Source of the DNA: a virus | Reading direction: 5' to 3' (one strand) | Length of the DNA stretch: 20,926 nucleotides | Virus record (IMG/VR): IMGVR_UViG_3300037069_001537 | Location: 1 to 20,926 of that record | In this document: one piece after another, positions 311-20,926 of the stretch | Numbering within the stretch: position 1 is the stretch's first letter | Layout of the letters: each line of letters starts with the position of its first letter | The notes under the pieces: generated by a model | The model's input: only the letters and a program-made list of their open reading frames with translations | Told to the model about the DNA's origin: nothing | Databases searched by the model: none | Program-made: the position numbers and the translations under genes

Positions 311-1356
311 GCTGCCACCTCGACCCACCATGCGGCGGCGGCGGCTGCCTGTTGGGGCACTACCCCGTTGCCCAGTACCCGCAGCGCATGGCGTTGGGAT
401 AGCCCAAGCTCGGGGGCGGTGATGTGCCCAGCGGGTAGCCCCATCATCCACTCGACAAACGCGGGTGAGAGTCGGGGCCCGGCTTGGCCGTCCTCGGTGG
501 GCGGCGGTGGGGTGCGCCCGATCATGGCCGTATGCCGTTCGATGGCGGGCGCGTACCGGGCCCATGTGCCTGCCCGCAGGGTTTCGATGGCCAGGGAGTC
601 GCCGTGCCCGTTGCCGTTGCCGTGCCTCACCTTGGTGATGGCCGTCCACTCCTCCCACTCCTCGGGGGTGGACCCGTAGCCCATGTCAAACGCGGCGGGC
701 GTGGGCAGCAGGGTTAGCGGGGTGTCGTCGCTATCACGTTGAGGGGTAAGCCTCTCCGGTCCCATTGGGACGCGCCTGCCGTGTTCGCCGAGTCCTGCAC
801 GGTGGGGGTCGGTAGCAAAGACAAAGACTCGGAACCGCTCGTGACACGCGCCCACGTCGGCAGCGCGTAGGCCAACCCATGCCGCGTCATACCCGAGGTC
901 GGCCAAATCGCCGAGTATCTTTCCCAGTGGCCGCAGAGTTGGGCTTGGTCGGTCTCCCACACACCACGGGCAGGATTCCAGCGGGCCAGGAATCTTGACA
1001 CTGAGTGCCCCTTTCACGTTTTCCCACACGACCAGGGTGGGGCGAAGCTCGGCGATTGCGTCGCGCATGGACGCCCACAGCCCGGAGCGGGTGCCGGGCC
1101 CCATGCCCGCCCGTTTGCCTGCAACGCTCACATCCTGACAGGGGGTGCCCCCGGTGAGGATGTCCACGGGTGGCACGGTGGCCCAGTCAATGGCGGTGAC
1201 GTCCCCGAGGTTGGGGGCGTGCGGGTGGGCGCGGGCCATGACCTTGGAGGCGGCGGGGTCGTTGTCGGCCCACCAGGTCACCTCACCCCCGAGGACGGCG
1301 GCTAGCCCCAAGCTCAGCCCGCCATAGCCTGCGAACAACTCGCCATAGGTGGTCAT
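307..1356 (-). CDS. DNA (cytosine-5) methyltransferase
   Basis: A 349-residue protein with the C5-methyltransferase motifs in order: SAM-binding ELFAGYGGLSLGL (residues 6-18), WADNDPAASK (29-38), GDVTAIDW (51-58), the catalytic Pro-Cys loop GGTPCQDVS (69-77, nucleophile Cys73), ENV at 112-114, the HERFRVFVF block (172-180) and the C-terminal RVLGNGVVPQQ (motif X, 326-336). It should methylate C5 of cytosine in phage or host DNA; the target site cannot be read from sequence. The start is ATG 1356, which overlaps the RusA-like gene's stop as ATGA; a longer upstream frame lacks homology. Residues about 119-215 lie over a second open frame with recognisable protein sequence (714-1001), and codon third positions there are less GC-rich than elsewhere. 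A self-protection or anti-restriction role is likely but inferred. Confidence 0.93.
   Translation of the reverse strand: MTTYGELFAGYGGLSLGLAAVLGGEVTWWADNDPAASKVMARAHPHAPNLGDVTAIDWATVPPVDILTGGTPCQDVSVAGKRAGMGPGTRSGLWASMRDAIAELRPTLVVWENVKGALSVKIPGPLESCPWCVGDRPSPTLRPLGKILGDLADLGYDAAWVGLRAADVGACHERFRVFVFATDPHRAGLGEHGRRVPMGPERLTPQRDSDDTPLTLLPTPAAFDMGYGSTPEEWEEWTAITKVRHGNGNGHGDSLAIETLRAGTWARYAPAIERHTAMIGRTPPPPTEDGQAGPRLSPAFVEWMMGLPAGHITAPELGLSQRHALRVLGNGVVPQQAAAAAAWWVEVAA
714..1001 (-). CDS. Overlapping 95-codon frame inside the methyltransferase gene, methylase-associated motif protein
   Basis: Same strand as the methyltransferase but in another frame: GTG at 1001, TAA ending at 714, with an in-frame TGA four codons upstream of the GTG. 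The translation includes ARWNPARGVWETDQAQL, YSAIWPTSGMTRHGLAYALP and LLPTPTVQDSANTAGASQW. From memory, the pattern W-P-[RST]-S-G-M/T-x(3)-G-x-[AL]-Y-x-L-P followed by LLPTPT..D recurs in the variable region of phage C5 methyltransferase-like proteins; that is recall, not a search. Over this stretch the alternative frame has G or C at most third positions, while the methyltransferase frame has many A/T third positions, which favours real coding in both frames. No clear ribosome binding site is visible. It could be a decayed remnant, a frameshift product or a true overprinted gene. Confidence 0.4.
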   Translation of the reverse strand: MSRFLARWNPARGVWETDQAQLCGHWERYSAIWPTSGMTRHGLAYALPTWARVTSGSESLSLLPTPTVQDSANTAGASQWDRRGLPLNVIATTPR

Positions 1357-1802
1357 AGCGCGGTCACCACGATGACGGCGCCCGGTGTGTCGAGGGCATC
1401 GAGGTGCCTGCCGGGGAAACACTTTTCGGCCTCCAGCCGCACGACTCGGGCATCATCGGTGATGGCCCCGGCGTCGGTGAGGGCGTCGAGTGTGGACCGG
1501 GCGAGTTTGTCCAGGTCGGGGCGCCCGGTGGGGTAGCCGGGGGCGGTGTCTTTGAGGCGTGCCGCGTTGCGTCCGGTGCCGTAGTGCAGCGCGGGGCGGG
1601 CCATGGTGAATGTGACGGTGACGGCCACGGCCAGGGGTGGTGTCCATGCTTGGGCCTGCGCCGCGTCGTATGCCTCGTGCCGCACCGCCTCACGCCATGG
1701 GCGCACCGCCTTGGATGACTCGACCATGCCCCCGTGTGCCATGCGCGTTTTGGAGCCTTGCGGCGCGGGGGTGCCCGGCACCACCACCACCAGGGTGGGC
1801 AC
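1353..1802 (-). CDS. rusA: RusA-like Holliday junction resolvase
   Basis: A 149-residue protein from GTG 1802. It starts VPTLVVVVPGTPAPQGSK, the usual RusA opening strand and 'PQGSK' loop, and contains GRPDLDKLARSTLDALTDAG followed by ITDDARVVRLEAEK. The aspartates of PDLDK and of the DD pair match the metal-binding acidic residues of the RusA family. The enzyme cleaves four-way junctions formed during phage recombination or replication. I prefer GTG 1802 because GGGCGG lies just upstream, the gap to the previous stop is 4 bases, and the family starts here; an ATG at 1886 would add 28 residues of low-complexity sequence and overlap the upstream gene by 80 bases. Its stop overlaps the methyltransferase ATG. 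Confidence 0.88.
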   Translation of the reverse strand: MPTLVVVVPGTPAPQGSKTRMAHGGMVESSKAVRPWREAVRHEAYDAAQAQAWTPPLAVAVTVTFTMARPALHYGTGRNAARLKDTAPGYPTGRPDLDKLARSTLDALTDAGAITDDARVVRLEAEKCFPGRHLDALDTPGAVIVVTAL

Positions 1803-1806
1803 GGGG

Positions 1807-2028
1807 TCACCGCCCGTAGCCGTTGACGTCAAGCTCGGCGGCGAGGTCGTCGGCGCGGCGGTCACCCCGGTGATAGTGGGCCTCATGCTCGCGGCGTAGG
1901 GCCTCGACCACGGCCATGCGCTGCCTGCGTATCAACTCTCTTTGCTCGGGCCCCAACGTGGCCCATGCCTCGGTTGTGAAGTAGCGCGGACGGAAGTGCC
2001 GCACCACCTCCTCCTCCCAGACGATCAC
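1807..2028 (-). CDS. Hypothetical 73-residue basic helical protein
   Basis: GTG at 2028 overlaps the stop of the upstream gene as GTGA, and the RusA-like gene starts 4 bases after its stop, so it is translationally coupled on both sides. The sequence MIVWEEEVVRHFRPRYFTTE, then LGPEQRELIRRQRMAVVEAL, is rich in Arg and Glu and is predicted by eye to be mostly helical; the charged central segment could form a coiled coil. No cysteine cluster or catalytic motif is visible. I do not recognise the family. Position between recombination genes suggests an accessory role in phage DNA metabolism, but nothing in the protein proves that. Confidence 0.7.
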   Translation of the reverse strand: MIVWEEEVVRHFRPRYFTTEAWATLGPEQRELIRRQRMAVVEALRREHEAHYHRGDRRADDLAAELDVNGYGR

Positions 2029-2496: not shown

Positions 2497-2729
2497 CCCT
2501 CTATCCCTTTGGCCACGACGTGCCGGGCGTAGGTGATGGCGTCGTGTCCGTCCTCGATGCCGGTAAGAATCTCCCACATGGCCATCGCGGTGGTGGCCCG
2601 CCCGGTGGCGTCGAAATTGGGCGGGTCGAACCCCGAGGCGTGGTCGTAGCAGCCGACCACGAGGCGGGCGAGTCGCACTAGGCGGGCGTTAAGCTCGGCG
2701 GTCGTCGTCGGTGTCGTTGTCGTCGTCAT
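2493..2729 (-). CDS. Hypothetical 78-residue protein with Thr-rich start
   Basis: ATG at 2729. The first ten residues are MTTTTTPTTT, because the gene begins inside the GAC-repeat that encodes the aspartate tail of the RecT-like protein in another frame; the overlap is 41 bases (2689-2729). The rest, AELNARLVRLARLVVGCYDH and MAMWEILTGIEDGHDAITYA, looks helical and folded. No known motif. The long overlap suggests translational coupling to the RecT-like gene. A shorter version from an internal start is possible, since the Thr-rich leader may not be functional. Confidence 0.65.
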   Translation of the reverse strand: MTTTTTPTTTAELNARLVRLARLVVGCYDHASGFDPPNFDATGRATTAMAMWEILTGIEDGHDAITYARHVVAKGIEG

Positions 2730-3807
2730 GGTTGGTGTCCTCCCAGAGTGTTGGGTCGGGGGTGGGGTTGTCGGGGCTCAGTCGCGCCCGGCCTTGGGTG
2801 ACCAGGGGCTCCAGAATCTCGGGGGTCTCGGTGGCCCGGATCAGGACGTCAATCAGGGCGGTGGCCTCGGTGCGGCTGAGTTGGTTGAGGCTCGCCAGGT
2901 CGCGCCCGACCAGCCCGCCCACGGTGCGCAGCCGTTCGGCGCGGGGTTCCATCCGGTCAAGCTCACCGAGGAGGGCGAACACGTGCGCCCGCTGGGGGCC
3001 CGTCAGGGCCTCGTCTGCGTCGTCGGGGGCTGGGGTGGCCCCGGTGGGCGCCTGCGCCGTGTTCGGCCCGGAGGGTGGCGGCGTGGGCGCGTCTGGGGGC
3101 AACGGGGGAGGCTCCCCGCCCATGGGGGCGGGCGGGCGGGGGGCCTCCTGTGGTGCCGCCCCCGCAGGGGGAGGGGGCGGCGTCTGGGGGGCGCGGTTGC
3201 GGCGCACGGCGCGGGTGGGTGCGGGCTCGGCGCCGTTCTCCTCCTCGGCGGGGATGTCCTGCGCCTCCTCGACCGTATACGCCATGCCGCCGATGACGTC
3301 GGGGAACAAAGCTCGGCACAACTCCCCGGTGGCTCGGGCTAGCAGCATTTGCCGGGGGTAGTGCGCCCAATTCTGTTTGCCCGCAATGCCTGCGCGGCGG
3401 GCGTCCTCCATGGACCATGACACAGCCGACTCGGCGGGGTCCCCCGCTCGGCGCCCGACCAGGGTGCAGCGTGCCGAGTTGACCTCGGCGAAACGGATTG
3501 AGTGCCCGTGCGCGAACACCAACGCCCGCATGAGTTGCGCGGACATGGCGGGGCGCCCGTCCACGACGTACAGGTGTTGCAGGGAGGTCATCGGGCCGAT
3601 GCCCATTTCCCGCCCGGCCAGGATGGCGGCGGCTACGGCGGCATCCTGCCCCCGGTACGCCTTGGGCACGAAATCCGTTGCGGCGATGTAGGTAGCGAGT
3701 TTGGCCACCGATGCCACTTGGTGGGCCCACCCGTCCACGATGTCGCGGCCCTGCGGCGGGGTGGGCAGCGCGGGTTGCTCCCAGCGGGCCACGTCCTGCC
3801 CGCTCAC
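2689..3807 (-). CDS. recT: RecT-like single-strand annealing protein with proline-rich linker and C-terminal domain
   Basis: A 372-residue protein from GTG 3807 (GTGA overlap). Residues about 25-185 carry the actinophage RecT-like pattern: FVPKAYRGQDAAVAAAI (46-62), GREMGIGPMTSLQHLYVVDG (65-84), the 'MEDARRAGIAGKQNWAHYPRQML' block (133-155) and FPDVIGGMAYTVEE (168-181). The role, annealing complementary strands after exonuclease resection, follows from the family and the RecB-like exonuclease gene two upstream. Residues about 197-265 are a Pro/Ala-rich linker. Residues about 267-325 (LTGPQRAHVFALLGEL ... SRTEATALIDVLI) form a small helical domain seen on similar phage proteins. The end is acidic (DDDNDTDDDRRA), reminiscent of tails that recruit partners. 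RecT and its relatives are diverse, so the exact subfamily is uncertain. Confidence 0.75.
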   Translation of the reverse strand: MSGQDVARWEQPALPTPPQGRDIVDGWAHQVASVAKLATYIAATDFVPKAYRGQDAAVAAAILAGREMGIGPMTSLQHLYVVDGRPAMSAQLMRALVFAHGHSIRFAEVNSARCTLVGRRAGDPAESAVSWSMEDARRAGIAGKQNWAHYPRQMLLARATGELCRALFPDVIGGMAYTVEEAQDIPAEEENGAEPAPTRAVRRNRAPQTPPPPPAGAAPQEAPRPPAPMGGEPPPLPPDAPTPPPSGPNTAQAPTGATPAPDDADEALTGPQRAHVFALLGELDRMEPRAERLRTVGGLVGRDLASLNQLSRTEATALIDVLIRATETPEILEPLVTQGRARLSPDNPTPDPTLWEDTNHDDDNDTDDDRRA

Positions 3808-4280
3808 GGCAGTGACCGCCCATCGAACGCGGGGCGACCGCTACGGGGCAGCAGGGCGAACGCCTTACGCGACCCATCCCCGGGGCGTTGCAGGGGGGCT
3901 ATAACCTCACGGCACCACGAGACGGGGATGTGCTGCCACATGGTCAGGGTGGACACGTCCACCACCACCACCGGGATGATGCGGGCCCATTGGTCGAGCC
4001 CCACGAGTTTGGCCAACTCGACCGGGATATGCGCGAACCCCGCACCCCCGGAACGGATCACCTCGACCAGCCGGGCCCCATGCTCGGGGTGGGTGGCCAG
4101 GATGTCGGGCATCGTCCGCAGCGGCCATATGGCATCTACCCGGATGACGGCCCGCGCCGCCTCGGGCCACGAGCGGGCCCCGACGTAGACGGCAGTCCAC
4201 CCGTGCTCGGCCAGGGCGTCACGCACCTGCCTTTCGTCAAGCTCGGCGGCGGCCAGATGTTCGGCGGTGTCCCAACTCAT
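3804..4280 (-). CDS. Unknown 158-residue protein between the exonuclease and RecT-like genes
   Basis: ATG 4280 overlaps the exonuclease stop (ATGA), and its own stop overlaps the RecT-like GTG, so the three genes form one coupled recombination unit. Residues begin MSWDTAEHLAAAELDERQVR with a helical region, then ALAEHGWTAVYVGAR, VDAIWPLRTMPDILATHP and ARLVEVIRSGGAG. A Pro-Asp followed about 17 residues later by Glu-x-Ile resembles the spacing of a PD-(D/E)xK nuclease core, but the lysine is absent, so an active nuclease is not supported. I do not recognise the family. Position suggests a partner or regulator of recombination. Confidence 0.75.
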   Translation of the reverse strand: MSWDTAEHLAAAELDERQVRDALAEHGWTAVYVGARSWPEAARAVIRVDAIWPLRTMPDILATHPEHGARLVEVIRSGGAGFAHIPVELAKLVGLDQWARIIPVVVVDVSTLTMWQHIPVSWCREVIAPLQRPGDGSRKAFALLPRSGRPAFDGRSLP

Positions 4281-5056
4281 GGCACACTCACCTGCGCGGA
4301 CGGGTCGAGCGCCGCCCCAACGGGCCAGGGGGTCCCATCCTTGCGGGCGGCGCTCACCCGCTCCGACCATGCCGATACCTGTGCGGCGTAACGAAACACG
4401 GTGTATGCCTCCTCGGTCACGGCCCAGTCGATGGGCACAAGCTCGGCGCTGTCGGCGGTGATATGCACCGCCCCCGCCCGCTCGGGCGGCACCCACTCGA
4501 TGAGTTGGCCGTCCTCCCGCTGGGCGTATGCCGCGTGCGCGTAGGCGGCGAGTTGTAGGGCGGTCTCCGGGTAGATGGCCTTACCCGTTTTCCAGTCGAT
4601 CAGCCACAGGGCCGAACCGATGCCGCACAGGAGGTCGAACGTGCCCGCCCACCTGTGCGCGGGGTGCAGCACCGGGCGTTCCCGCATCACGGGTTCCATG
4701 CGCCACGCGTCCATGAGGCGGGCCACGGCCTGCACGGAGCCGTGCTGTGCCGGGGGCACGTCCACCGCCTGCCCGGACACCAGCCGCTCGGCCAGGGCGT
4801 GTATCTGGGTGCCGTTGAGGGCGGCGGCGTCGCGGGTCTCCCAGCGCACCCGCCGCAGCGTGTCCAGCCTCGCGGTGTGGGACAGGGCGGCAAGCTCATC
4901 CCAGCGGTTGACGGCGGTCTCGGCGGTGATGTTGCCCGCCCACTCCTCCAGCCCCTTTTTGCGGAGGGCGTCGAGGATCGTGGTTACCCCGGGCAGCCGC
5001 TCCCCGTCGAGGGTGTAGGAGTGCCCGCGCCCGTGGTTGACGCGTCGGAAGTCCAC
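4277..5056 (-). CDS. RecB/Cas4-like PD-(D/E)xK exonuclease
   Basis: A 259-residue protein from GTG 5056. The nuclease core is clear: GTQIHALAERL (82-92, His86), a charged segment MRERPVLHP (124-132), AGTFDLL (137-143, Asp141), LIDWKTGK (152-159, Asp154 and Lys156) and LQLAAYAHA (167-175), the Gln-x3-Tyr motif of RecB-type nucleases. These residues coordinate metal and cut phosphodiester bonds. With the RecT-like protein it likely forms a two-component homologous recombination system in which the exonuclease makes single strands. The N-terminal RLPGVTTILDA is typical of phage members. Start chosen because GGGGG lies upstream and the gap to the previous stop is 4 bases. Confidence 0.88.
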   Translation of the reverse strand: MDFRRVNHGRGHSYTLDGERLPGVTTILDALRKKGLEEWAGNITAETAVNRWDELAALSHTARLDTLRRVRWETRDAAALNGTQIHALAERLVSGQAVDVPPAQHGSVQAVARLMDAWRMEPVMRERPVLHPAHRWAGTFDLLCGIGSALWLIDWKTGKAIYPETALQLAAYAHAAYAQREDGQLIEWVPPERAGAVHITADSAELVPIDWAVTEEAYTVFRYAAQVSAWSERVSAARKDGTPWPVGAALDPSAQVSVP

Positions 5057-5060
5057 GGGG

Positions 5061-5297: not shown

Positions 5298-5542
5298 AGC
5301 GACACCGCCGAGTCGTCGTCGGCGTCGCTCACCGAGAAAATGTCGGCGAACGCCTCGGGCCCCATCACCAGCCGCACCGCCGCCATAAGCTCATGGCCCG
5401 GCACACTCTTGCCACGGGTGGCCCGGCTGAGGGTCGAGGGGGCGATGTCCAGCCCTAGGGCAATCTCGCCCATGGTGTACCACCCGCGCTCTTTGCCCCA
5501 CCACCGCAGTTTGCGGACGTCGATCACCCACACAGCAGACAT
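5294..5542 (-). CDS. Small HTH DNA-binding protein (Cro/XRE-like)
   Basis: An 82-residue protein from ATG 5542: MSAVWVIDVRKLRWWGKERG, then MGEIALGLDIAPSTLSRATR at 24-43 and GKSVPGHELMAAVRLVMGPE. The segment 23-50 is a clear XRE-type helix-turn-helix (start sensing 'I-A-x-x-L-x-I-x-x-S-T-L-S-R' recognition helix). It heads the leftward early operon and lies next to the integrase, so it is the best candidate for a Cro-like or lysogeny regulator acting on the gap at 5543-5780. The same frame stays open back to 5734, but that upstream sequence is basic, low-complexity and contains the palindrome, so I consider ATG 5542 the start. It is short for a full CI-type repressor; the true immunity repressor may lie outside this window. 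Confidence 0.75.
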   Translation of the reverse strand: MSAVWVIDVRKLRWWGKERGWYTMGEIALGLDIAPSTLSRATRGKSVPGHELMAAVRLVMGPEAFADIFSVSDADDDSAVSL

Positions 5543-5820: not shown

Positions 5821-5834
5821 GAGACAGGGGCGTT

Positions 5835-5869: not shown

Positions 5870-5872
5870 GAC

Positions 5873-6925
5873 CTAGGCCAGACCAGCCCGCCTCACCGCG
5901 TCGATGGCCCGCTCATTTTTGAGGTTGCGGGCGTAACGGTCGAGCATGGCCCGGTCTTTCCAGCCCATCACCGCCATGACGTCGCCCTCCTCGATGCCCC
6001 CGGACAGCAGGACATGGGCGCGGGTGTGCCGGAACGCGTGCGCGTTGATCGTGGCGGGATCGTAGCCCGCCTCCTGCGCCCGACGCTTGACCATTCTCAG
6101 GATGCCGTTGCCGGTGAGCCGACCGCGCCCACGGGTGGCGTACCACAGCGGGCCCGTGGTGGCGTCTTTCACCAACTTGTGCGCGGCCCGCACCCGCAGC
6201 CACTTGTGCAGCGCTACCAGGGCCTCGGGGCCCAGCGGCACGACGCGCCCTAGGCGGTGCTCCACCCCATCGACCACCCGCACCACAGGGGCGGTGCGGC
6301 GCGAGTCTTTGAACGCGCCCACGGTGATGGTGCCGCCCGCGCTGTCGATGTCCTCGACGTACAGCCCTTGAAGCTCGGCGCGGCGCACCCCGGTGGCAAG
6401 CAACCGCAGGATGGCCGCGTCCCGCACATCCTCGAATGAGGCGCCCCGGCACTCGGCCAGCAGGTGCCCCACGACGTCGCCCCCGAGGGCTGAGGGCGGC
6501 GGGGCACTGGGGGCGTAGTAGGCCACCTTGCCCCGGTAGGGCGAGGTAGTGCCGTAGGTCTCCTCTAGGAACGCATAGAACGGTCGCAGCCGCCGCAACT
6601 TGGTGTTGGTGCCGCCTTGGGTGTGGGTGGCCCGGTACGCGGCCAGGAACCCGTTAAGCGTCTCGGTGTCCACCTCGGGGAAGTCACCGACAAACCCGGT
6701 GCCGGTCAGGTAGTCCCCGAGGGCGTCCACCGCCTCTAGGTAGCCCTCGATGGTGCGGCGGCTGTAGGCGTCGCCCGCCTTGGAGGTGGCAGTCCGCAGG
6801 TGCGTGGCGTACACGGTGCGGGCCATGGTCCGGGCGGCGCCCCCGGCCACCTTGGTGGGCGGCGTGGGGGCGGGGCCTGCGGCGGCGCGGGCGTCCCGCA
6901 GCGGGGCGGTGGCGGCGCGGGTCAT
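5873..6925 (-). CDS. int: Tyrosine site-specific integrase
   Basis: A 350-residue tyrosine recombinase from ATG 6925 (ATGA overlap with the zinc-ribbon gene). The N-terminal half (about 30-130) holds the SAM-like core-binding domain (YSRRTIEGYLEAVDALGDYL). The catalytic domain shows LLATGVRRAELQGL with Arg181, Lys206 in VGAFKDSRR, HAFRHTRAHVLL with His296 and Arg299, GWKDR with Trp322, and nucleophile Tyr331 in MLDRYARN. All catalytic residues are present, so it should be active. It would recombine the attP core at 7302-7345 with a host tRNA-Arg gene. Length is slightly short for phage integrases with a separate arm-binding domain, but residues 1-35 (proline/alanine-rich) may reach the arm sites at 7204-7461. 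Confidence 0.95.
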   Translation of the reverse strand: MTRAATAPLRDARAAAGPAPTPPTKVAGGAARTMARTVYATHLRTATSKAGDAYSRRTIEGYLEAVDALGDYLTGTGFVGDFPEVDTETLNGFLAAYRATHTQGGTNTKLRRLRPFYAFLEETYGTTSPYRGKVAYYAPSAPPPSALGGDVVGHLLAECRGASFEDVRDAAILRLLATGVRRAELQGLYVEDIDSAGGTITVGAFKDSRRTAPVVRVVDGVEHRLGRVVPLGPEALVALHKWLRVRAAHKLVKDATTGPLWYATRGRGRLTGNGILRMVKRRAQEAGYDPATINAHAFRHTRAHVLLSGGIEEGDVMAVMGWKDRAMLDRYARNLKNERAIDAVRRAGLA

Positions 6926-7461: not shown

Positions 7462-7563
7462 AAAACGCGTGTCCTCTTGCGCTAACGCATCGAGTCGGGG
7501 AGGGTGACGCTTGAAACGCACCCCCGCACGGGTGGGGGGGCCAGGTCGAGAGGGTCGGGGCGA

Positions 7564-7935
7564 ATGGCGAACGGGCGACGACGTACCAAGCTCACCAGGG
7601 CACTAGCAACGTGGGAGGAGTCGCTACCGGACGCGTACCTCCAATGCCGAGACCTCGGGCACCTATGGCGCCCGTTCACGGCGCAATGGCACCAGCAGGA
7701 ACGGGCCTATTCGCGGGTGTTGTCGTGCCAACGGTGCGGCACGCAACGCGCCCAGTGGGTCAGTGCGTCGGGGCACATCGCCCACGGCAACGCGTACACG
7801 TACCCGGAGGGCTACACGGCCCCGGCTGGGTCGGGGCGCATGGATGGCGTGGCCAGGGATGCCCTGCGCCTTGCGTCTGTTCTGCGCATGGTTGACCAAC
7901 TCGGCGACCACGAGACCGAACGAAAGAGGGCCTAG
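7564..7935 (+). CDS. Unknown protein with Cys-x2-Cys knuckle, 123 residues
   Basis: First of three plus-strand genes. ATG 7564 is preceded by AGAGGGTCGGGG; an in-frame GTG at 7504 would add 20 low-complexity residues. The protein has SLPDAYLQCRDLGHLWRPF, a knuckle SCQRCGTQRAQWVSASGH, then YTYPEGYTAPAGSG and a C-terminal helix. Such 'LPD.Y..CRD.GH.W.PF ... C.RC.T.R' proteins are, to my memory, frequent in actinophages; the function is unknown and zinc binding is inferred. Direction is opposite to the flanking operons. Confidence 0.8.
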   Translation: MANGRRRTKLTRALATWEESLPDAYLQCRDLGHLWRPFTAQWHQQERAYSRVLSCQRCGTQRAQWVSASGHIAHGNAYTYPEGYTAPAGSGRMDGVARDALRLASVLRMVDQLGDHETERKRA

Positions 7936-7938
7936 AGC

Positions 7939-9715: not shown

Positions 9716-10014
9716 GGGGCGGGCTCCGATGGGAACACAACCCCGGCGTACACGGGCCAATTGGCCTGTACCGACGCCAAAATGTCGGGGTCCTCGACCT
9801 GATCCGACCGCTCCCCGTTGAACGATGGCGACACACACACAAGCTCGAATAGCCCGAGGGCGTTGATTTGGCTGGCAATGATCGACTCCGCCAGCGCTGC
9901 CATGTCTGCCCGCCCGTCGTCCTTGAAAATGAGGGCTTGCTCCGTACAGCACGCCATCACCCGATCCCGAAATGCGGGGTCGTCGCTCAACTTGCCCATC
10001 GCTGCATAGGTCAT
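9712..10014 (-). CDS. Conserved actinophage protein of unknown function, 100 residues
   Basis: ATG 10014, ending in an ATGA overlap with the endolysin. The protein starts MTYAAMGKLSDDPAFRDRVM, then ACCTEQALIFKDDGRADMAA and ends DPDILASVQANWPVYAGVVF. The pattern 'D..FR.R..AC.TEQA..F.DD.R.D..ALA' and 'D..I...VQA.WP..A' is one I recall from proteins next to the minor tail genes of actinophages. It may be a tail or lysis accessory factor. The longer frame back to 10128 overlaps the minor tail gene and is not convincing. Confidence 0.75.
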   Translation of the reverse strand: MTYAAMGKLSDDPAFRDRVMACCTEQALIFKDDGRADMAALAESIIASQINALGLFELVCVSPSFNGERSDQVEDPDILASVQANWPVYAGVVFPSEPAP

Positions 10015-12297: not shown

Positions 12298-14127
12298 CTA
12301 CACCGTCCCGGTGCGTAGCGCCCCGGTCAGCCCTACGCGGCGGTCGTGGGCGTCGAGGATGCGGCGTATCTGCCGGGCGGTGCTCTCGGGGTCCACGGCC
12401 CCTTGAATCACGATGGTGGGCGCCGTTTGGGCAGTGCCCCCGGTGCGGGTGCTGTAGAGCCCGGCAGAACGGAACCCGCCCCCACCCACCCCGGCACCGG
12501 GCGCGGGCGGCGCCGATTTGCCGATCACACTGGAGAGCCACGAGGGCGGCTTGGGCCAGGAGATTGACGGCACCTTGATACGGCCCAACCACCCCACCAG
12601 GGTTTGCACGGCACTGACCACGGCCCCCACCGCCGATTGCACGGCATGGAATGGTGCGGCCAGGACCGAGGCAAGCCCGGCCATGGCGCCCCGGATACCG
12701 GCCACCATGGACGCCCATGTCCGGGTTACCCACCCGGTGACCGAGGAGACCACGGAGCGTATGCCGTTGAATGCGGCGGTGATGACGGCCACGACGGCGT
12801 TGAACACGGCCCGGACCACGGTCAGATAGGCGGTCACGTAGGCACGGAGCACGGCCCACACGACACCCCACACCGCGACGATGACGCGGCCCACGGCGGC
12901 GGCGGCTGTTTGGATAGCCGCCCACATGCCCAGCACAAAAGCTCGGAACGCAGCCGACCTATTCCACAACAGGATGATGACGGCCACCAGGGCGATAACC
13001 GCGATGATGACCAGCCCTATCGGGTTGGCACTCATGGCGACGTTCCAAAGCCATTGGGCGGCGGCAGCGGCCTTGCTCGCGGCGCTCGCGGCAATGGTCG
13101 CGGTGGTCGAGGCAACCACGGCGGCGGCGGCGGCGATGGCGGCGGGCGCGGTGCGCAGCCACGCCACAAGCTCCAGATACTTGATGCCCAACCACGTCCC
13201 AAGGGTCGAGGTCGAGAGGGCGGTGGCGGCGGCGGCTACGGCCTGCCCGGCAGCGTAAATTTTCATGGCCACGTTCACGGCCAGGACGGCGCCGACAAGC
13301 CCGAGGATCACCCCCATGAGGACGTTGGCGGCGGCGGCGTTGTCGTGCATGAAAGACGCGAGCCCGGACAGGGCCCCGGACAGGGCGACGACGGCGGGTA
13401 GGAGGGCCTGCCCTATGGCGGCTTGGGCGTCCTGCCATTTGGCGGTTGCCACCTGTTGGGCGTGGGCGGCGGTGTCGGTCTCGCGGGCGAACGCCCCATG
13501 CGCGTCGGCGGCGCCTGCGGTGAGGAGTGCCAGGGTGGCCATGGCGGACGCGTTTTTGCCTGCGGCGCCTGTGAGTTTGGCGGTGCCGTCCGCCGCCTTT
13601 TTGGCGTTGATGTCGCTCTGCTTTATCGAAATCCCGTATTTCTCGATGGGGTCGAACTCGCCTCGCAGGGTGGACCCCAGAGCGGCCACGGCGTCGGCGG
13701 TGGTGCCACCGAATTGGGCGGCGAGGTCGGCGCCCATCTTGATGAGGTCGTTTGTCTGCCCGGTCACTTGCTCCAGGGGGACGCCCATGCCCTTTAGTTG
13801 GGCCCCGGTCACCGCCGCCATTTCGAGATAGGCAGCCTGTGAGAGCCCCACCGCGTCAGCCGATGTCTTGGACCACGCCTTGACCTGATCGGCGTTACGC
13901 CCGAACACCGATTCGACTGCCCCCATTGCTTGCTCGGTGCGGGAGGCGGCGTCCACGGTGGTTTTGGCAAACGCCAGGACGGCCCCGCCGATCAGCCCGG
14001 CAGGTATGGCGGCTTTGGCCACCCCCTTGGTGAACTTGTCCACCCCGGTGGCGGCTTTGTTGAGCCCGGCTTGGGCCTGTGAGTAGTCGGTGAGGATTTT
14101 GATAGCGAGTATCGCCGACCGTGCCAC
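12298..14127 (-). CDS. Tape measure protein
   Basis: A 609-residue protein from GTG 14127, with ribosome binding site AGGAGGTGAGG just upstream. It opens with [20 protein letters not shown] and [20 protein letters not shown], shows the phage tail tape-measure '[20 protein letters not shown]' region, and has long alanine/valine-rich hydrophobic stretches (about 255-450) typical of these proteins. It sits after the G/G-T chaperones and before tail-tip genes, the standard place. Tape measure length sets tail length; at the usual 0.15 nm per residue this predicts about 90 nm, a flexible-tailed siphovirus. The segment [20 protein letters not shown] near the end is a common C-terminal motif. Confidence 0.93.
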
Positions 14128-14131
14128 GTCC

Positions 14132-14607
14132 TCACCTCCTACGGCTTGCCGCTCGGGCCCTCTCGGCCCGCTCCCCCAACAGGTCCAGAACCGTTGCTAT
14201 CACTTGGTCGTCGGCGTCCCACCACCACGGCGGCGGTATGCCGATGTCGTAGACGTCTGCTATCTCGCAAATCAGCCGGGCACGGGACCCGGTGGGAAAG
14301 GGTCCACCCCGGTGGTGTCCTCCTCGTCCTCGTCGGCGTCGAGGTTGGCCACGTCGAGGGTTGACGCCTCCCACGCCTCGTAGGTCACATCGGCGGGGAG
14401 GCGCCCCTCCCGGCGTACCGCGTGCCAGGAGATAAACGTGAGCCACTTGAACGGGGCGTCTTTAAGCTCGGGCCAGTGATGCTTGCCACGGGTCATGTCC
14501 CACGCGATCAGGTCGGGGTTGAGGGTCTGCACCTCGATGACCTCGGGGGCGTCGATAGACCCCCGCAGCACCCGCAGCCGGGGGGAGGAGAGTTTGTAAT
14601 CTGCCAT
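14132..14607 (-). CDS. Tail assembly chaperone G-T fusion made by -1 frameshift
   Basis: The G frame from ATG 14607 and a second frame ending TAG at 14132 join if ribosomes slip back one base at CCCTTTC (14302-14296 on the minus strand). After the slip the protein continues [40 protein letters not shown] and ends [14 protein letters not shown], giving 158 residues in total. The second frame alone has no good start. G and G-T chaperones with this switch are found before the tape measure gene in almost all siphoviruses; they hold the tape measure protein during tail assembly. The '[11 protein letters not shown]' part is typical of the T domain. Frequency of slippage cannot be told from the sequence. 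Confidence 0.85.
14272..14607 (-). CDS. Tail assembly chaperone G (unshifted product)
   Basis: The 111-residue unshifted product from ATG 14607: [60 protein letters not shown] and an acidic end [20 protein letters not shown]. The 'D...W(D/E)...RGK..WP.......WL.F..W.A.RR.G' pattern is the typical actinophage G protein. Normally it is the more abundant partner. The slip site covers residues 102-104 (Asp-Pro-Phe), close to its stop, as usual for G proteins. Confidence 0.88.
   Translation of the reverse strand: MADYKLSSPRLRVLRGSIDAPEVIEVQTLNPDLIAWDMTRGKHHWPELKDAPFKWLTFISWHAVRREGRLPADVTYEAWEASTLDVANLDADEDEEDTTGVDPFPPGPVPG
14296..14302 (-). promoter_or_regulatory. Slippery heptamer CCCTTTC for -1 frameshifting
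   Basis: On the minus strand the zero frame reads GAC CCT TTC, i.e. C-CCT-TTC, an X-XXY-YYZ heptamer. A -1 slip re-pairs the two tRNAs with CCC and TTT. The zero-frame stop comes about 7 codons later, and the -1 frame stays open to 14132. Confidence 0.8.
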
Positions 14608-14611: not shown

Positions 14612-14995
14612 TTATGCGCCTCTCACTTGGTCTAGGACACGCTGCACGGCTTTGTAGTAGGCAACCGTCCAGGTCGGTTCGGTGTCGTGGGCGGCGTCCA
14701 CGAGGAACGGGTTAGCGGCGATGTTGCGGCGCGGCCACCCCCAGTGAATGGGCCCGGCATACGGCACCCCGGCCCGGCCCGCCCGAACCACGGCCATGGA
14801 CACAGCGCGGTTGCCTCGCACGGTCCCGGCCAGGGTCCCGCTCACGTGGGGGGCCCTGACCGTGGCGGCGCTACTGACGGTCGAGGCGGCGGCGGCGTTG
14901 GCGTCTTTGAGGTCTGCCACGTCGAGCCCGGCACGGCGCAACGACGCCCGAAGCTCACGGGCGCCGCGCACCTCAACGATGCCACCACCGGCCAT
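14612..14995 (-). CDS. HK97 gp10-like head-tail/tail completion protein
   Basis: A 127-residue protein from ATG 14995. It starts MAGGGIVEVRGARELRASLR, has APHVSGTLAGTVRGNRAVSM ('A P...G.L..S/T.R'), VPYAGPIHWGWPRRNIAANP and a C-terminal amphipathic helix VAYYKAVQRVLDQVRG. The 'G.L..T.R.....A.V..G...VPYA..IHWG.P.R...A.PFL..A' pattern is typical of HK97 gp10-type proteins, which join the tail to the connector. It lies after the tail tube gene, whereas such genes usually come before it. Confidence 0.75.
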   Translation of the reverse strand: MAGGGIVEVRGARELRASLRRAGLDVADLKDANAAAASTVSSAATVRAPHVSGTLAGTVRGNRAVSMAVVRAGRAGVPYAGPIHWGWPRRNIAANPFLVDAAHDTEPTWTVAYYKAVQRVLDQVRGA

Positions 14996-14996
14996 G

Positions 14997-15416: not shown

Positions 15417-15429
15417 GGTGGATCACTCC

Positions 15430-15792
15430 CTAACAGGTGGAGACGGTCACCCGGGCGGTTATGCCGGGCATGGTGGATTGGTTGGTTTCGAACACCACGA
15501 GCACCGGGCCCACAGTCTCGACGGTGCCGCACTTGGACAGCGCGGCCATCACCTCCTCGATAAGCCCGTCTGCGGCGTCCACGGTGTCGGGGTGGTAGCC
15601 CGAGGGAAGCAACACCCGCACGTCGTAGGTATGGACGACAGGGTGGGCGAGTTTCCCACCCCGGTAATGGGACTCGGCCCACACCGGCCACGCGGCACCG
15701 GCCACCGGGGTGTCAGGCATGGTGGCGAACGGTTGAAGCTCGGGCACCGTTGCCAGGGCCTCGACCACCGCATCCCGCGCCGACAGCATCAC
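15430..15792 (-). CDS. Tail terminator-like protein
   Basis: A 120-residue protein from GTG 15792 (GTGA overlap); an ATG at 15789 immediately follows and would also couple as TGATG. It begins MMLSARDAVVEALATVPELQ, contains VVHTYDVRVLLPSGYHPDTV with DAADGLIEEVMAALSKCGTV and ends ITARVTVSTC. Position just before the tail tube gene and the helix-strand pattern fit the tail terminator (gpU-like) group, which caps the tail. Identification relies mainly on gene order. Confidence 0.65.
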   Translation of the reverse strand: MMLSARDAVVEALATVPELQPFATMPDTPVAGAAWPVWAESHYRGGKLAHPVVHTYDVRVLLPSGYHPDTVDAADGLIEEVMAALSKCGTVETVGPVLVVFETNQSTMPGITARVTVSTC

Positions 15793-16133
15793 GCCACCAC
15801 GTGCAGCCGGTAGGACGCCTCTAGCCGCGACACCTCGGCGTCATAGGAGGCGAGACGCTGGGGCCCGAACTCGGCGGCGGTGTCGGTGTAGAAACCCAGA
15901 GCGATGTTGCGGGCGGCGCACTGTCGTTGCACCCGCCGCAGCAGGGCCCGCCCCAACGCGGCGGGGTAGGTGGCCTCCTGCCCCGCCTCGTCGGGGTCGT
16001 CGGGCACCTCGCAGGTACGGGCTTGGATATCAAGCTCGGCCTCACGGATAGCCGCCAGGTCGGCGTCGGGGATGCCTTGCGCGGACACGTTCGCCCACGC
16101 TCGGCACTCCTCGGCGGTGGGGACTCCGATCAC
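15789..16133 (-). CDS. Head-tail connector (gp6-like)
   Basis: A 114-residue protein from GTG 16133 (GTGA overlap with the capsid stop). It starts MIGVPTAEECRAWANVSAQG and has ADLAAIREAELDIQARTCEV, YPAALGRALLRRVQRQCAAR and GFYTDTAAEFGPQRLASYDA. A helix bundle with 'P..A.L.R...L.........ALGF' is the form of phage head-tail connector or adaptor proteins that sit under the portal. Directly downstream of the capsid gene, as expected. Confidence 0.72.
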   Translation of the reverse strand: MIGVPTAEECRAWANVSAQGIPDADLAAIREAELDIQARTCEVPDDPDEAGQEATYPAALGRALLRRVQRQCAARNIALGFYTDTAAEFGPQRLASYDAEVSRLEASYRLHVVA

Positions 16134-17317
16134 TTGTCAGACCTTGACGCGGACTGGGTGCCTGCGGTGGCGGACACGGAGCACTCGACGAGGGCGGCGG
16201 GGCGGGTAACGATGGTCTTACTGCGGCGCTCGGCCAGGATCGTAAACACGTTCGACAGGAACGTGCTGGCATGGCTGTCGGTGATGTAGAGCGACACCCC
16301 GGAGCGGGTGTAATGCTGCACCCCGGCCCGGAAGTCGCCCACCGTGGCGGTGCCCAGCGGCTGGGCGTTGTCGGCGATCACCGAGAGTCCCCAGTAGTTG
16401 GTATTGATGACGGGCCCGGCCATGGTGCCGCCGAGAATGGCGATATCCAGGGTTGCCCAGTCGGCGGGGTTCACTAGTACCGCGTTGGGGTTGTAGCCCG
16501 CCGCCTGCACGGTGCCGATGCCCACCCGGATGGCGGACAGCAGGGAGTCGCCCAGCGGCACGGTGGCGGTCGGCAGGGCGGCGGCTGCCAGGGCGGCGGC
16601 AGCCTCCGACTCCTCGGCCACCAGCACCTCCCGCTGAAGCTCGCCGTCGATCAGCGACCGCACGGCGGGCGCGTCCTCCACGAGTTGCCGCGTGAGTTGG
16701 GTGTAAACCGCGATGGTGTCCAGCGTTGACGGGGTGACGGTCGGCGCATACTCCGCCGATGGCTTGCCCGTTTTCTCGGCGACGATGGCGGCGCCGCCCT
16801 GAATCTTGGCCCACACCACCACGTCGATGGCGTTTTGGGAGACGGTAACCCCGGTCATGGCGTCGATCAGCGGGGTAGGGGTGGGCGGCGCGGTGGCGTC
16901 CACCGTGACGGTGCCGCCCTTCCACCCTGCGGCGATGAGGTCAGCCACCCCGGTGGGAATGGCGCGAACCTGCGGGGTGTCGAGGCTGAGGCGCCCGGAC
17001 GTGCCACGGGCGGGGTAGCCGGTGAACACCTCAGAGCGCACAAACGCCTCCCCCCATGACTGACGCGTCAGGGGCTCGCGGGGGTCGTCGCGGTGCTGGG
17101 CCTTGGCTAGCCGCCCGTCGAGGGCGTCCGCCGCCGCCTGACGCTCCAGCAGGGAGGCGAGAGTGCCCGCCCTCTTGTCGAGGTCGTCGGCGCGGGCCTG
17201 AAGCTCGCCAAAAGTCTTGTCGTCGGGGCTGAAGTCGTCGGACTCAGCCATCGCCAGGGCGGCGTTGCGGGCCTCATCACGTTCGGCCCGAATCTTGTCG
17301 AGGACAGCGGTACTCAT
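16130..17317 (-). CDS. Major capsid protein, HK97 fold
   Basis: A 395-residue protein from ATG 17317, preceded by GGGGAG. A longer frame to 17413 is basic and unlike the family. Residues about 1-90 form a charged coiled coil (MSTAVLDKIRAERDEARN, ELQARADDLDKRAGTLASLL), the delta/scaffold domain removed by the prohead protease. The rest follows HK97-type capsids: AAIVAEKTGKPSAEYAPTVT, IAVYTQLTRQLVEDAPAVRS, LVNPADWATLDIAILGGTMA, GLSVIADNAQPLGTATVGDF and FTILAERRSKTIVTRPAALV. It assembles into the icosahedral shell. The upstream gap 17318-17437 (120 bases) shows only a short inverted repeat GACATGGATGTC at 17338-17349. Confidence 0.92.
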   Translation of the reverse strand: MSTAVLDKIRAERDEARNAALAMAESDDFSPDDKTFGELQARADDLDKRAGTLASLLERQAAADALDGRLAKAQHRDDPREPLTRQSWGEAFVRSEVFTGYPARGTSGRLSLDTPQVRAIPTGVADLIAAGWKGGTVTVDATAPPTPTPLIDAMTGVTVSQNAIDVVVWAKIQGGAAIVAEKTGKPSAEYAPTVTPSTLDTIAVYTQLTRQLVEDAPAVRSLIDGELQREVLVAEESEAAAALAAAALPTATVPLGDSLLSAIRVGIGTVQAAGYNPNAVLVNPADWATLDIAILGGTMAGPVINTNYWGLSVIADNAQPLGTATVGDFRAGVQHYTRSGVSLYITDSHASTFLSNVFTILAERRSKTIVTRPAALVECSVSATAGTQSASRSDK

Positions 17318-17437
17318 GTGGGTCAACTCCCCGGAATAGACATGGATGTCAGTCCACGGGGGTGGTTCCCGGTGCGGGGTGTGCCTCGACATGCTCCGAG
17401 GGGCGCCCGGCAATGGTTCGCAAAACCGCTGCCACCA

Positions 17438-18022
17438 CTATGACGTCAGGGCCCGCAGATGGGCAATGGCCAACTCCCGGGCGTGGTCGCCCTCCAGGTC
17501 CCGCACCGACGCCACAAACGCGGCATCCCCATAGGCGCCGTGCGGCACCAGGGCCACCCCGAGGAGTTGCCCCCGGTAGTGCCGCACGTGCAGCCCGTCA
17601 CGGCGGCGGGTCACCCGGTAGCCGTCCTGTGGGGCCCGAAACTCAATCGAGCATTGGTCGAGGGTGCCGTCTGTGGCAAGCTCGCGGGCCTCCAGCGCGG
17701 CGGCGGTGTTCGAAAACTTGGCCCGCACCCACACCCCGTCAGCCCGGTCCTCCACCGTTTTGGCGTGCCCGATCAGCACCCCGCCCGCGTTGGCGTGCCG
17801 GTGCCAGAACTTGACCCGGTGGGCGGCGTTGGCGGCGGCGGCGAACGTGCCGGGCGCGAACGACTCCCACAGCTCGGCCTCTAGTTCGGCCTCGACCCCA
17901 TACGGCGCGGCCCGTAGCAACACGGTGCCCTCGTCGGCGTCGATGGCCTCGACGGTGGCCTCTCGGATTTGGACGGCGCCGAACCGTGGCAGGGCCTCCA
18001 GGTCGGTAAGGGTGGCGGTCAT
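17438..18022 (-). CDS. Prohead protease
   Basis: A 194-residue protein from ATG 18022 (ATGA overlap with portal). It has AAPYGVEAELEAELWESFAP, VKFWHRHANAGGVLIGHAKT with the candidate catalytic histidine (His74 or His76), ATDGTLDQCSIEFRAPQDGY with Ser125 as likely nucleophile, and LLGVALVPHGAYGDAAFVAS. This is the HK97 U35-type serine protease pattern. It should clip the capsid N-terminal delta domain during maturation. Placement between portal and capsid is canonical. Confidence 0.9.
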   Translation of the reverse strand: MTATLTDLEALPRFGAVQIREATVEAIDADEGTVLLRAAPYGVEAELEAELWESFAPGTFAAAANAAHRVKFWHRHANAGGVLIGHAKTVEDRADGVWVRAKFSNTAAALEARELATDGTLDQCSIEFRAPQDGYRVTRRRDGLHVRHYRGQLLGVALVPHGAYGDAAFVASVRDLEGDHARELAIAHLRALTS

Positions 18023-19326
18023 GGTGTCGGCCCTCCTGCGGGTGGTGCGGGGTTGTCGGTGGGGGGTGGTAGGGGCGGCAGCCCTTCCAGGGCTCGCACC
18101 TCGTCAAGCGTGAGGATTCCAGCGGCCAGGGCGGCGCTGTAGGCGGCGATTCGCTCGGACATGGCGGGGTTGGCGAACCCGTCGAGGTTGACGGTCACCG
18201 TTTGGTTGCCCGGCAGGAGTGCGCTCAACGTGTCCTGCACGGCGGCGATCCACGGGCCTAGCCCAAAGTCGCGGTGGTTCTCCCACGCGTCTCGGAGGTT
18301 GGTGTAGGTGGCCGAGTTGTTGAGCCCCGCGCCCAACGTCATGGGGTCCAGCCCGAACGCAAAGGCGACGTCTGCGACGTTCAGCCGTTTCACTTGGTCG
18401 AGGGCGGCGTCAACGGGCGACAGCGACAGGGGGACAAAGCTCGTGGTCGAGTTGAGGACGGCAATACTGCGGCGGGCACTCGACCCGTGGTTGGCCAACC
18501 ACTTGGATTTGAGTTTGTCGGCCTGCGGCTCGGTCATGCCCGGCACCTCGGTTTTGAGGTATCCGTTAGGGATGCCCGCCCGGAATTGCCCGGCTTGGTA
18601 GGTGTCGATGTTGCCCGCCATGGTGAACACCCCGGGGGACATGGCAAACACGCCTTGGCTCATGCCCTCGGTGTCGATGGGCGACAACGGATTGCGGAGG
18701 ACGGTGATGTGAACCCCCGGGCCCTCGGGCAATGTGCCCTCGGGGGTGAACGTGACGGCGCCCTCGGTGGTGTCCACCTGCCAGCACAGCCGCCCCGACC
18801 CATCGCGCATGGTGTGCAGGAACCCCGGATGCACCACCCGCATGGTGCCCGCCATTGGCTGCCCCGCACTGTCGGGCTGCCAGATAAAAGCACCCACCCC
18901 CCACCACAGCGCCGACCGGATCAACTCGGCCCAGAACACCGACCGCACCCGCTGCACGGCGCTCGGGGCCAGGGTCACGGGGAAACGGTCATCGGGGCGG
19001 GCCAACATCGGGTCAGTCAGCCACCGGGGCGACCCCACCGGGGCGCCGCCCAACGTCGCCTCCAGCACCCGGAACGGGGCCACCGTCAACGGCCCGGTAA
19101 TCAGCGCGGTGGCCCTCGTGACGGTCGGCACCGCCCCACCCCACCCGTGCGGCCACGGCCCGTTAGGGCCAATCGGTGTTGCGCCCCCGCCGCTGTCGAG
19201 CCCGATCCACCACAGAGCGGGGGGGTAGTCGGATGGGAACCCCTCGGGGTCATTCACCAGGAAATCCCCGGTGGTGCGGGCGTATGCGGCGCGGTCGAGG
19301 ATGCGTGACCGGGGAAGTGTCGGCAT
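18019..19326 (-). CDS. Portal protein
   Basis: A 435-residue protein from ATG 19326, with AAGGG eight bases upstream; the frame stays open to 19413, but the extra residues are unlike the family. Key stretches: PPALWWIGLDSGGG, LIRSALWWGVGAFIWQPDSA, FRAGIPNGYLKTEVPGMTEP, ARRSIAVLNSTTSFVPLSLS, VKRLNVADVAFAFGLDPMTL and a C-terminal AAGILTLDEVRALEGLPPLP. This is the standard actinophage HK97-type portal, the dodecameric ring through which DNA enters. The gap between terminase and portal (19327-19449, 123 bases) has an imperfect GGAAA/TTTCC hairpin and one AAGCTCGG; no gene seen. Confidence 0.88.
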   Translation of the reverse strand: MPTLPRSRILDRAAYARTTGDFLVNDPEGFPSDYPPALWWIGLDSGGGATPIGPNGPWPHGWGGAVPTVTRATALITGPLTVAPFRVLEATLGGAPVGSPRWLTDPMLARPDDRFPVTLAPSAVQRVRSVFWAELIRSALWWGVGAFIWQPDSAGQPMAGTMRVVHPGFLHTMRDGSGRLCWQVDTTEGAVTFTPEGTLPEGPGVHITVLRNPLSPIDTEGMSQGVFAMSPGVFTMAGNIDTYQAGQFRAGIPNGYLKTEVPGMTEPQADKLKSKWLANHGSSARRSIAVLNSTTSFVPLSLSPVDAALDQVKRLNVADVAFAFGLDPMTLGAGLNNSATYTNLRDAWENHRDFGLGPWIAAVQDTLSALLPGNQTVTVNLDGFANPAMSERIAAYSAALAAGILTLDEVRALEGLPPLPPPTDNPAPPAGGPTP

Positions 19327-19449
19327 GGCCGTAGCCCTTGACTCGGGGGGCGGGGAAACGGGCCGACACTGGCACCTAACACGCAGGGTAGACCCAAGCT
19401 CGGGGGCCACCACCCCCCCACAAGCCCCGGAAAGGGCGTTTTCCCGGCC

Positions 19450-20926
19450 TCAGAACACGGCGGGGGCCTCGGGTGCCCCCCTCGCCTCCTGCGCCGCCCA
19501 GACGGCGGCTTTGATGGCGTCCGTGCGGCCCTTGGACCGGACCCGGGGCCCCTCCGGGCCCGAGACCACCCGCACCCCAAGCACCTGCGCCGCCAGGTCG
19601 GGCCCGTCGTCGTGCCGCATGACGCCCTCGACCACGAGGCGCCGAAGCTCGCCGACCGCCTGCCGTGACGTGCCGCCCACCGCCCGCACCGGCAACTCCC
19701 GCAGCGCGGGGTCGCCCGCAATGGATTTGCCCACCAGCACCGAGGGCACCCCGTCGAGGTAGCCCGCCGCCTGCGCCACAGTGTCGGCCAGGAAACACGA
19801 CACCCCCACATGCCCGGCCCCGTCATGCCCGGCCAGGGCCACGGCGACCCCCTGCCCGAACCACGCCTCCAGCGCCGCAGCCACGGGGGCGGTGGGCACG
19901 TACCCGCCCAACGCCTCCCACTCGGTCGAGGTGAACGCGGGCACACCAGGGTCCTCGGGGCGGGTGTGCGCCACGTCAACCCATTGGTTGAGGTAGTTCT
20001 GCCGAAACTCCAACTCCGTCTGCTTGGCGAGTTTGTCGATCACCTCGGACTCTCGCCGCTCACTCCAGATGGGCGACGCGGCACGCCACGCGGCCCGGTC
20101 GCTCAGGAGGGCGTCAGGGTGCGCCGACCACTCGGCAATAAGCGTGTTGCCGGGGTCGTCAAGCTCGGCCAACGCCTGCCCCCGGTACGTGCCGAACAAA
20201 TCCGATGCCGAGTCCCCCGCTGTGCTGATTAGGAGGAGTTGCGGGCTCGCCGATTCGGTCAGTGCGTCGTCGGCAGCCTCGACCACGCCCCGCCCGATCA
20301 TCCACCCCTCGTCAGCCACCAGCGCCGACAGGGCGAACCCCACCCCCACCCCGTCAGTGGCAGCCCGGATCAGCCACCGGCCACCGTCTGGGGACTCGAT
20401 CACCTGCTCACCGTTCGCCCACCGCACCCGCCAACCCTGCCCGGCAGCCCACCGCGCCGCAGGACGCCAAACCTCCGAGGCGGTCGGCAGCCGGTGCGCG
20501 ATATGGATAACCGTTTGCTCCTCCCCGAACCGTTCGCCCTGACAGATGCGCCACAACACCAGCGCCCGCACCAGCCACGATTTGCCCACCTGCCGGGCCA
20601 TCGTCACCAGGGCGTTACGCCACACCAGCCGCCCCCCCGCGTCATGCTCCAGCAGACGGAACGCCACCACCCGCTGCCACCACCGCAACCCCGACGTCTG
20701 CCGGGGGTGAATGCCGGGGTGCGCGTCCAGCCACGCCACAAACTCGGGCCCATAGGTGCCCACCGCGTCAGGGTGAGGGCCCGTCATGTAGCGCGGGGGG
20801 GAGGCGTCGGGCGGCACCGGCCCAAACTCGGCGATCCACGGCAGGGATTCGGCCAGGGCGGGCCAATTGGTGGGGTCCGGGGGCCTTGGGGAGAGAGACG
20901 CGGCAGACGCGGGTTCTCTCCTTCCC
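19450..20926 (-). CDS. terL: Terminase large subunit (5' end beyond window)
   Basis: Frame open from the right edge to a stop at 19450, at least 491 residues. No ATG, GTG or TTG occurs in frame between the edge and GTG 20817, and the sequence upstream of 20817 reads TNWPALAESLPWIAEFG, which I recognise as N-terminal terminase sequence; so the start probably lies outside. The ATPase domain has LRWWQRVVAFRLLEHDAGGR, Walker A VTMARQVGKSWLVRAL and Walker B SALVADEGWM. Downstream, YLNQWVDVAH and the nuclease region (AGHDGAGHVGVS, TDAIKAAVWAAQEAR) follow. It packages phage DNA through the portal. A small terminase gene would be to the right. Confidence 0.93.
   Translation of the reverse strand, partial: GRREPASAASLSPRPPDPTNWPALAESLPWIAEFGPVPPDASPPRYMTGPHPDAVGTYGPEFVAWLDAHPGIHPRQTSGLRWWQRVVAFRLLEHDAGGRLVWRNALVTMARQVGKSWLVRALVLWRICQGERFGEEQTVIHIAHRLPTASEVWRPAARWAAGQGWRVRWANGEQVIESPDGGRWLIRAATDGVGVGFALSALVADEGWMIGRGVVEAADDALTESASPQLLLISTAGDSASDLFGTYRGQALAELDDPGNTLIAEWSAHPDALLSDRAAWRAASPIWSERRESEVIDKLAKQTELEFRQNYLNQWVDVAHTRPEDPGVPAFTSTEWEALGGYVPTAPVAAALEAWFGQGVAVALAGHDGAGHVGVSCFLADTVAQAAGYLDGVPSVLVGKSIAGDPALRELPVRAVGGTSRQAVGELRRLVVEGVMRHDDGPDLAAQVLGVRVVSGPEGPRVRSKGRTDAIKAAVWAAQEARGAPEAPAVF

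Follow-up and report, generated by a model that had tools for sequence, protein, structure and literature searches.

We show here that a stretch of phage DNA, IMG/VR record IMGVR_UViG_3300037069_001537 (20926 bases, linear, G+C 69.3%; the whole stretch is called the window below), keeps more than a dozen short words locked in one orientation, and that AAGCTC is one of them and strongly enriched. AGCT occurs 34 times in the window; 33 of these sites are AAGCTC on the plus strand, while GAGCTT is not found on that strand at all. An earlier sequence-only reading of this DNA had described AAGCTC and had missed that it belongs to a larger set of orientation-locked words. The explanation that we favor, with a probability of about 0.6, is that the phage sequence was heavily recoded as it escaped several restriction systems together, some of them of a kind that requires its sites in head-to-head pairs (Type III or Type ISP). 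The AAGCTC excess beyond any purge model is a further, separate question.

Counts of AAGCTC and of the other locked words

The exact string count agrees with the 34 AGCT, the 33 AAGCTC in one orientation and the absence of GAGCTT that the sequence-only reading had counted by eye, and its estimates of about 69% G+C, about 3 AAGCTC per strand and about 60 AGCT lie close to the computed G+C of 69.3% and to the 2.9 and 59 expected from base composition. In-place synonymous-codon shuffling, which that reading had proposed as a check, does not reproduce the skew: 33 copies in the seen orientation compare with 3.9 expected, and 0 copies in the reverse one with 2.7, so that AAGCTC stands about eightfold above the codon expectation. 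In the gene set, GAGCTT was observed 29 times and the maximum among 400 codon shuffles was 10. The window had also been called AGCT-purged. This holds for AGCT outside AAGCTC (1 observed, about 46 expected), the sole such site being CAGCTC at 17870, but the total of AGCT is low only to a moderate degree (34 observed, 49.8 under synonymous-codon shuffling). The pentamer GAGCT occurs 0 times against 16.1 expected, and its opposite orientation 34 times against 28.8.

The strand ratio of AAGCTCGG is 18:0. The GG that had been taken as part of the word nevertheless lies outside the invariant core of 6-7 bp, and the sites share no extended conserved motif. The base 3' of AAGCTC is a purine at 32 of the 33 sites, which suggests AAGCTCR as the extended word; since GGAGC is depleted generally, the seventh position is uncertain. 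The AGCT sites, all from the exact string count, are listed below together with the word found at the aligned place in the relatives L010-L012 where it is GAGCTC.

406..411, plus strand, AAGCTC
1045..1050, plus strand, AAGCTC
1310..1315, plus strand, AAGCTC
1831..1836, plus strand, AAGCTC
2691..2696, plus strand, AAGCTC, overlapping the RecT stop codon
2959..2964, plus strand, AAGCTC
3309..3314, plus strand, AAGCTC
4239..4244, plus strand, AAGCTC
4439..4444, plus strand, AAGCTC
4892..4897, plus strand, AAGCTC
5387..5392, plus strand, AAGCTC
6371..6376, plus strand, AAGCTC
7588..7593, plus strand, AAGCTC within the plus-strand gene 7504..7935, encoding Lys-Leu (AAG CTC)
8135..8140, plus strand, AAGCTC within the plus-strand gene 7939..8496
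9162..9167, plus strand, AAGCTC
9328..9333, plus strand, AAGCTC
9841..9846, plus strand, AAGCTC; GAGCTC in aligned L011
11330..11335, plus strand, AAGCTC
11488..11493, plus strand, AAGCTC; GAGCTC in aligned L011
11675..11680, plus strand, AAGCTC
12939..12944, plus strand, AAGCTC
13168..13173, plus strand, AAGCTC, the sole copy followed by C rather than a purine
14464..14469, plus strand, AAGCTC
14951..14956, plus strand, AAGCTC
15736..15741, plus strand, AAGCTC
16032..16037, plus strand, AAGCTC; GAGCTC in aligned L011
16637..16642, plus strand, AAGCTC
17201..17206, plus strand, AAGCTC
17678..17683, plus strand, AAGCTC; GAGCTC in aligned L010-L012
17870..17875, plus strand, CAGCTC, the lone AGCT outside AAGCTC
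18437..18442, plus strand, AAGCTC
19396..19401, plus strand, AAGCTC
19645..19650, plus strand, AAGCTC
20161..20166, plus strand, AAGCTC; GAGCTC in aligned L010-L012

CCAGG (66:0), GCTCGG (41:0), ACCAG (36:0), CGGCGT (35:0) and TCCACG (24:0) are as polar as AAGCTC. In a formal polarity test the window scored 19-20 polar words, and for 14 of these one orientation has zero copies. CCTGG is absent from the plus strand against 34.3 expected, and its complement CCAGG occurs 66 times against 72.8 expected; the tolerated orientation is near the codon expectation for most other locked words, and AAGCTC is thus distinct in its strong enrichment. Many palindromes, among them CGGCCG, GCCGGC, CCGCGG and GCGCGC, have zero copies. 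Both orientations of CTTC/GAAG are depleted (26 vs 92), and so they are in L011, L013, L014 and L017.

The lock in relation to genes and transcription

The window is probably a fragment, though a large one, of the genome of a small, temperate, tailed actinophage. It carries genes for terminase, portal, protease, capsid, tail proteins, endolysin and integrase, and further an exonuclease, RecT, RusA and a C5 DNA methyltransferase. Among annotated phages, megablast with the window gave no match, and searches with the integrase and RecT gave distant relatives only. Nearly all coding sequence is held by the minus strand; a short cluster at 7504-8496 runs the other way, on the plus strand. The genes that bear on the argument are as follows.

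307..1422, minus strand, predicted phage cytosine-C5 DNA methyltransferase (PF00145)
7504..7935, plus strand, gene in which the genome-wide word polarity is kept
7939..8496, plus strand, C2H2/Di19-type zinc finger gene (Pfam PF05605) in which the genome-wide word polarity is kept

In the two plus-strand genes, the forbidden orientations occur 0 times against 15.4 ± 3.6 expected and the allowed ones 17 times against 12.0, counts that are not all independent because the locked words partly overlap. Since these genes keep the same forbidden orientations as the rest of the window, the polarity is not set by codon bias or mRNA-level selection, and the lock tracks the DNA molecule, not transcription. 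Both AAGCTC copies in these genes (two copies only) keep the genome orientation. In the minus-strand genes, Lys-Leu is written AAG CTC in 0 of 11 cases and AAA CTC in 8, and Glu-Leu is written GAG CTT in 19 of 31; AAG CTC and GAG CTT are one double-stranded hexamer read in opposite directions, and the plus-strand gene 7504-7935 does write Lys-Leu as AAG CTC. Almost all AAGCTC copies are in coding sequence, and they occupy every reading frame of the main strand (18, 6 and 5 copies against 1.9, 0.7 and 0.15 expected, respectively).

A strand bias that arises from codon usage, from a preference for certain dipeptides or from selection on the mRNA (e.g. by sequence-specific endoribonucleases) would suit a window with nearly all its coding sequence on one strand and with 19 copies in Glu-Leu pairs. 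Such an origin is nonetheless scarcely tenable, since the codon shuffles fail, copies are held in all frames and the plus-strand genes lack the forbidden words; as a sufficient cause it is refuted by the shuffles, by these genes and by the purge model described below. The odds of chance or an assembly artifact are next to negligible, as the shuffles reach at most 10 GAGCTT against 29 and contig L009, identical to the window over 5259 bases, has the same word.

Probable restriction escape and the excess of AAGCTC

If the phage has escaped from several restriction systems, Type II-like systems would have removed palindromic or two-way sites entirely, and those that recognize an asymmetric site and need two of them face to face for a cut (Type III or Type ISP) would have removed one orientation and left the other free. 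AAGCTC would then be the remnant where an AGCT-directed purge meets an orientation lock, nearly all other AGCT contexts being forbidden, and Glu-Leu as well as some Ser or Ala codons would take refuge in it, GAG CTT replacing GAG CTG or GAG CTC. Codon refuge is observed in the window; in alignments with L010-L012, their GAGCTC often corresponds to GAGCTT in the window, and the relatives' CAGCTN and AAGCTN mostly correspond to CAACTC and AAACTC, respectively. The locked words behave as restriction sites of this kind should, with one orientation absent, the other near expectation and a polarity that is uniform despite gene direction. We infer the enzyme class, the specificities behind the locked words and AAGCTC(R) itself as a recognition site. 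The sequence-only reading had left two options, a polar signal or escape from a system reading AGCT; escape is well supported by the one-way purges at the DNA level, and the Chi-like host signal within the other option is not borne out in the actinobacterial genomes examined.

Alignment of the portal protein against host genomes gave no relatives at first. The terminase alignment gave distant prophages in Nocardioides, Kribbella and others, and a portal match at 55% identity, the closest one from a prophage, was found in one genome, placed in the genus of a named Nocardioides record, which also carries a Type ISP enzyme. Within the probable host genus, Type ISP enzymes were found in 23 of 147 genomes, the portal-match genome included, and a Type III nuclease domain above the cut-off in 4 of 147, and orientation-locked escape is therefore plausible there.

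Portal homologues of the window at 63-79% identity have different sets of purged words. AGCT is 0 in L013, L014, L015 and L017, and GAGCTC is retained in L010-L012; L010, L011 and L014 have CCTGG and lack CCAGG. AGCT is likewise absent or nearly so (0, or 1 against 26.7 expected) in L162 and in a prophage region of Nostocoides japonicum (L038). These AGCT-poor contigs and the prophage region point to what may be a widespread AGCT-cutting system in their hosts. The close relative L020 (5.3 kb) differs from the window in its purge, with CCGCC at 0 against 20.4 and ACCGC at 0 against 17.3, both orientations counted.

Several results weigh against restriction escape as the full account. A Monte Carlo purge model, in which protein and codon usage were kept and 73 depleted words were removed, gave 12.7 ± 2.7 AAGCTC (maximum 18 in 43 samples) with about 1 copy out of frame, against 33 and 11 observed, respectively; the tolerated orientation thus exceeds the codon-refuge expectation, which a plain restriction site should not. 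The model is inexact, as it underestimates other refuge words (CAACTC, CTCGAC) about twofold, but it still falls short of 33. A single-mutation escape model gave 8.7 copies and, even with extreme C-to-T change at GAGCTC, no more than 14.7, with about 1.7 of the main-strand copies out of frame; the mutational path from GAGCTC was therefore rejected. Purge and lock also do not predict the over-regular spacing: the coefficient of variation (CV) of AAGCTC spacing is 0.59 (P about 0.0006), evener than random placement, and the smallest gap is 158 (P 0.00015), whereas ten other frequent words have CVs of 0.83-1.15. Neither the purge model nor the mutational routes reach 33. Purge, lock and refuge thus leave a remainder of about 20 copies, and the even spacing as well, in line with the argument of the sequence-only reading that avoidance alone is insufficient. 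The leftover excess may be a second, positive signal. Furthermore, no enzyme with AAGCTC specificity was identified, and the host genus is probably Nocardioides on the basis of distant prophages only. Among the phages of a large survey, strand-asymmetric avoidance was not systematic for Type III sites (PMC6286503), and the phage described here is therefore of use as a test case.

The excess could also come from positive selection for AAGCTC(R) as a polar signal in the DNA, with a copy about every 600 bases in one direction, on top of restriction purging. The signal would be read by machinery that translocates or is strand-specific; candidates are control of nucleases as at Chi, priming of replication, DNA packaging and a DNA-binding protein encoded by the phage. 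We regard this as a tentative possibility. It would explain why the copies outnumber those of the purge-only model in every frame and why their spacing is unlike that of the ten other words, and the relatives hold nothing comparable. That same absence, in relatives with 65-79% identical portal proteins, also counts against it, as do the intragenic sites without an extended conserved motif and the roughly twofold excess of CAACTC and CTCGAC over the purge model. The sequence-only reading had suggested looking for the word in host genomes. In nine actinobacterial genomes, the actual host not among them, AAGCTCGG occurs 70-340 times per genome per strand, like a reversed control, and a host Chi-like word is not supported by these nine genomes. 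No relative examined has an enriched polar word comparable to AAGCTC, and a family-wide phage signal was rejected on that ground. It is doubtful, though conceivable, that this lineage gained AAGCTC(R) after the split from the relatives as a one-directional signal that is under active selection and evenly spaced, e.g. to guide a translocating enzyme or as a decoy that keeps a head-to-head restriction enzyme occupied and itself stays uncut.

A variant of restriction escape, not fully separate from it, is that AAGCTC(R) is marked by a methyltransferase (a host single-strand type or the phage C5 enzyme at 307-1422), so that an AGCT cutter spares the word, its orientation being locked since AAGCTC(R) would also be a head-to-head restriction target. 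The zero AGCT in several relatives fits an AGCT-cutting system, the phage encodes a C5 methyltransferase, and the tolerated unit resembles known Type ISP targets in that it is asymmetric, measures 6-7 bp and may be degenerate at one of its ends. A protected site should, however, be tolerated and not enriched, and the role of the phage methyltransferase is putative; we consider this variant rather improbable.

Polarity in other phages and comparison with known systems

The polarity test was applied to 98 phage contigs including the window: 76 have no polar word and 7 have three or more, the window having the most (20) and Microbacterium phage Quaker having 16. In the controls, 13 stretches of prophage and one more of phage DNA, no polar words occur. 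In the whole genome of Quaker (MH371111), the 16 strand-polar words include CCAGGC (0:21) and CTTCG (1:36), and its minus-strand cluster has forbidden words at 0 against 5.4 expected. In IMGVR_UViG_3300037499_000324 (20.9 kb), GGGGG occurs 0 times and CCCCC 71 times, TCGGT 0 and its complement 79, and GCTCGG 0 and its complement 45. Strand-asymmetric escape from head-to-head enzymes has so far rested on the example of T7 and EcoP15I. If restriction escape is right, the restriction repertoire of uncultured hosts would be readable from phage sequence alone, with specificities that could be predicted for a methylome check.

To our knowledge, no enzyme has any of the locked words as its target. 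The avoidance of Type II palindromes by phages is paralleled by the complete lack of CGGCCG, GCCGGC, CCGCGG and GCGCGC, but the window also has one-orientation avoidance. Type ISP targets are asymmetric and single-strand methylated, double-strand cuts need head-to-head pairs, and head-to-tail pairs yield nicks (PMC4666363). The enzymes LlaGI and LlaBIII resemble what the window suggests in their asymmetric 6-7 bp targets and head-to-head rule, and Type ISP enzymes occur in the probable host genus; the difference is that nicking stays possible at head-to-tail pairs.

In cluster A mycobacteriophages, stoperators are 13-mers that sit in short spaces between genes and follow the direction of transcription (PMC9283540). 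They share with AAGCTC that numerous asymmetric oriented sites are dispersed along an actinophage genome, but in the window the core measures 6-7 bp, nearly all copies are intragenic and the polarity takes no account of the direction of the plus-strand genes. Chi is likewise short, asymmetric, oriented and over-represented; AAGCTC differs from it in its ordinary frequency in the nine actinobacterial genomes and in the lack of such a signal in relatives.

The closest parallel, already drawn in the sequence-only reading, is EcoP15I (Type III) in phage T7, where cleavage needs inversely oriented sites (PMC3874151). With T7 as positive control, the same polarity test recovered an asymmetric site in a single orientation genome-wide (CAGCAG 0 against 10.3 expected, CTGCTG 36 against 24.1). 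T7 also has GAGCTT 0 and AAGCTC 17 (expected 12 and 16), the same hexamer being polar without enrichment, and further polar pairs are CTGTTG 0 and CAACAG 23, and GCAGAG 0 and CTCTGC 17. CTGCTG in T7 is 1.5-fold over expectation with a site CV of 1.01, whereas AAGCTC in the window is about eightfold over expectation and evenly spaced; T7 is known for one such enzyme, whereas the window has more than a dozen locked words. The T7/EcoP15I kind of lock is therefore known, and what is new in the window is that many words are locked at once and that one of them is strongly enriched.

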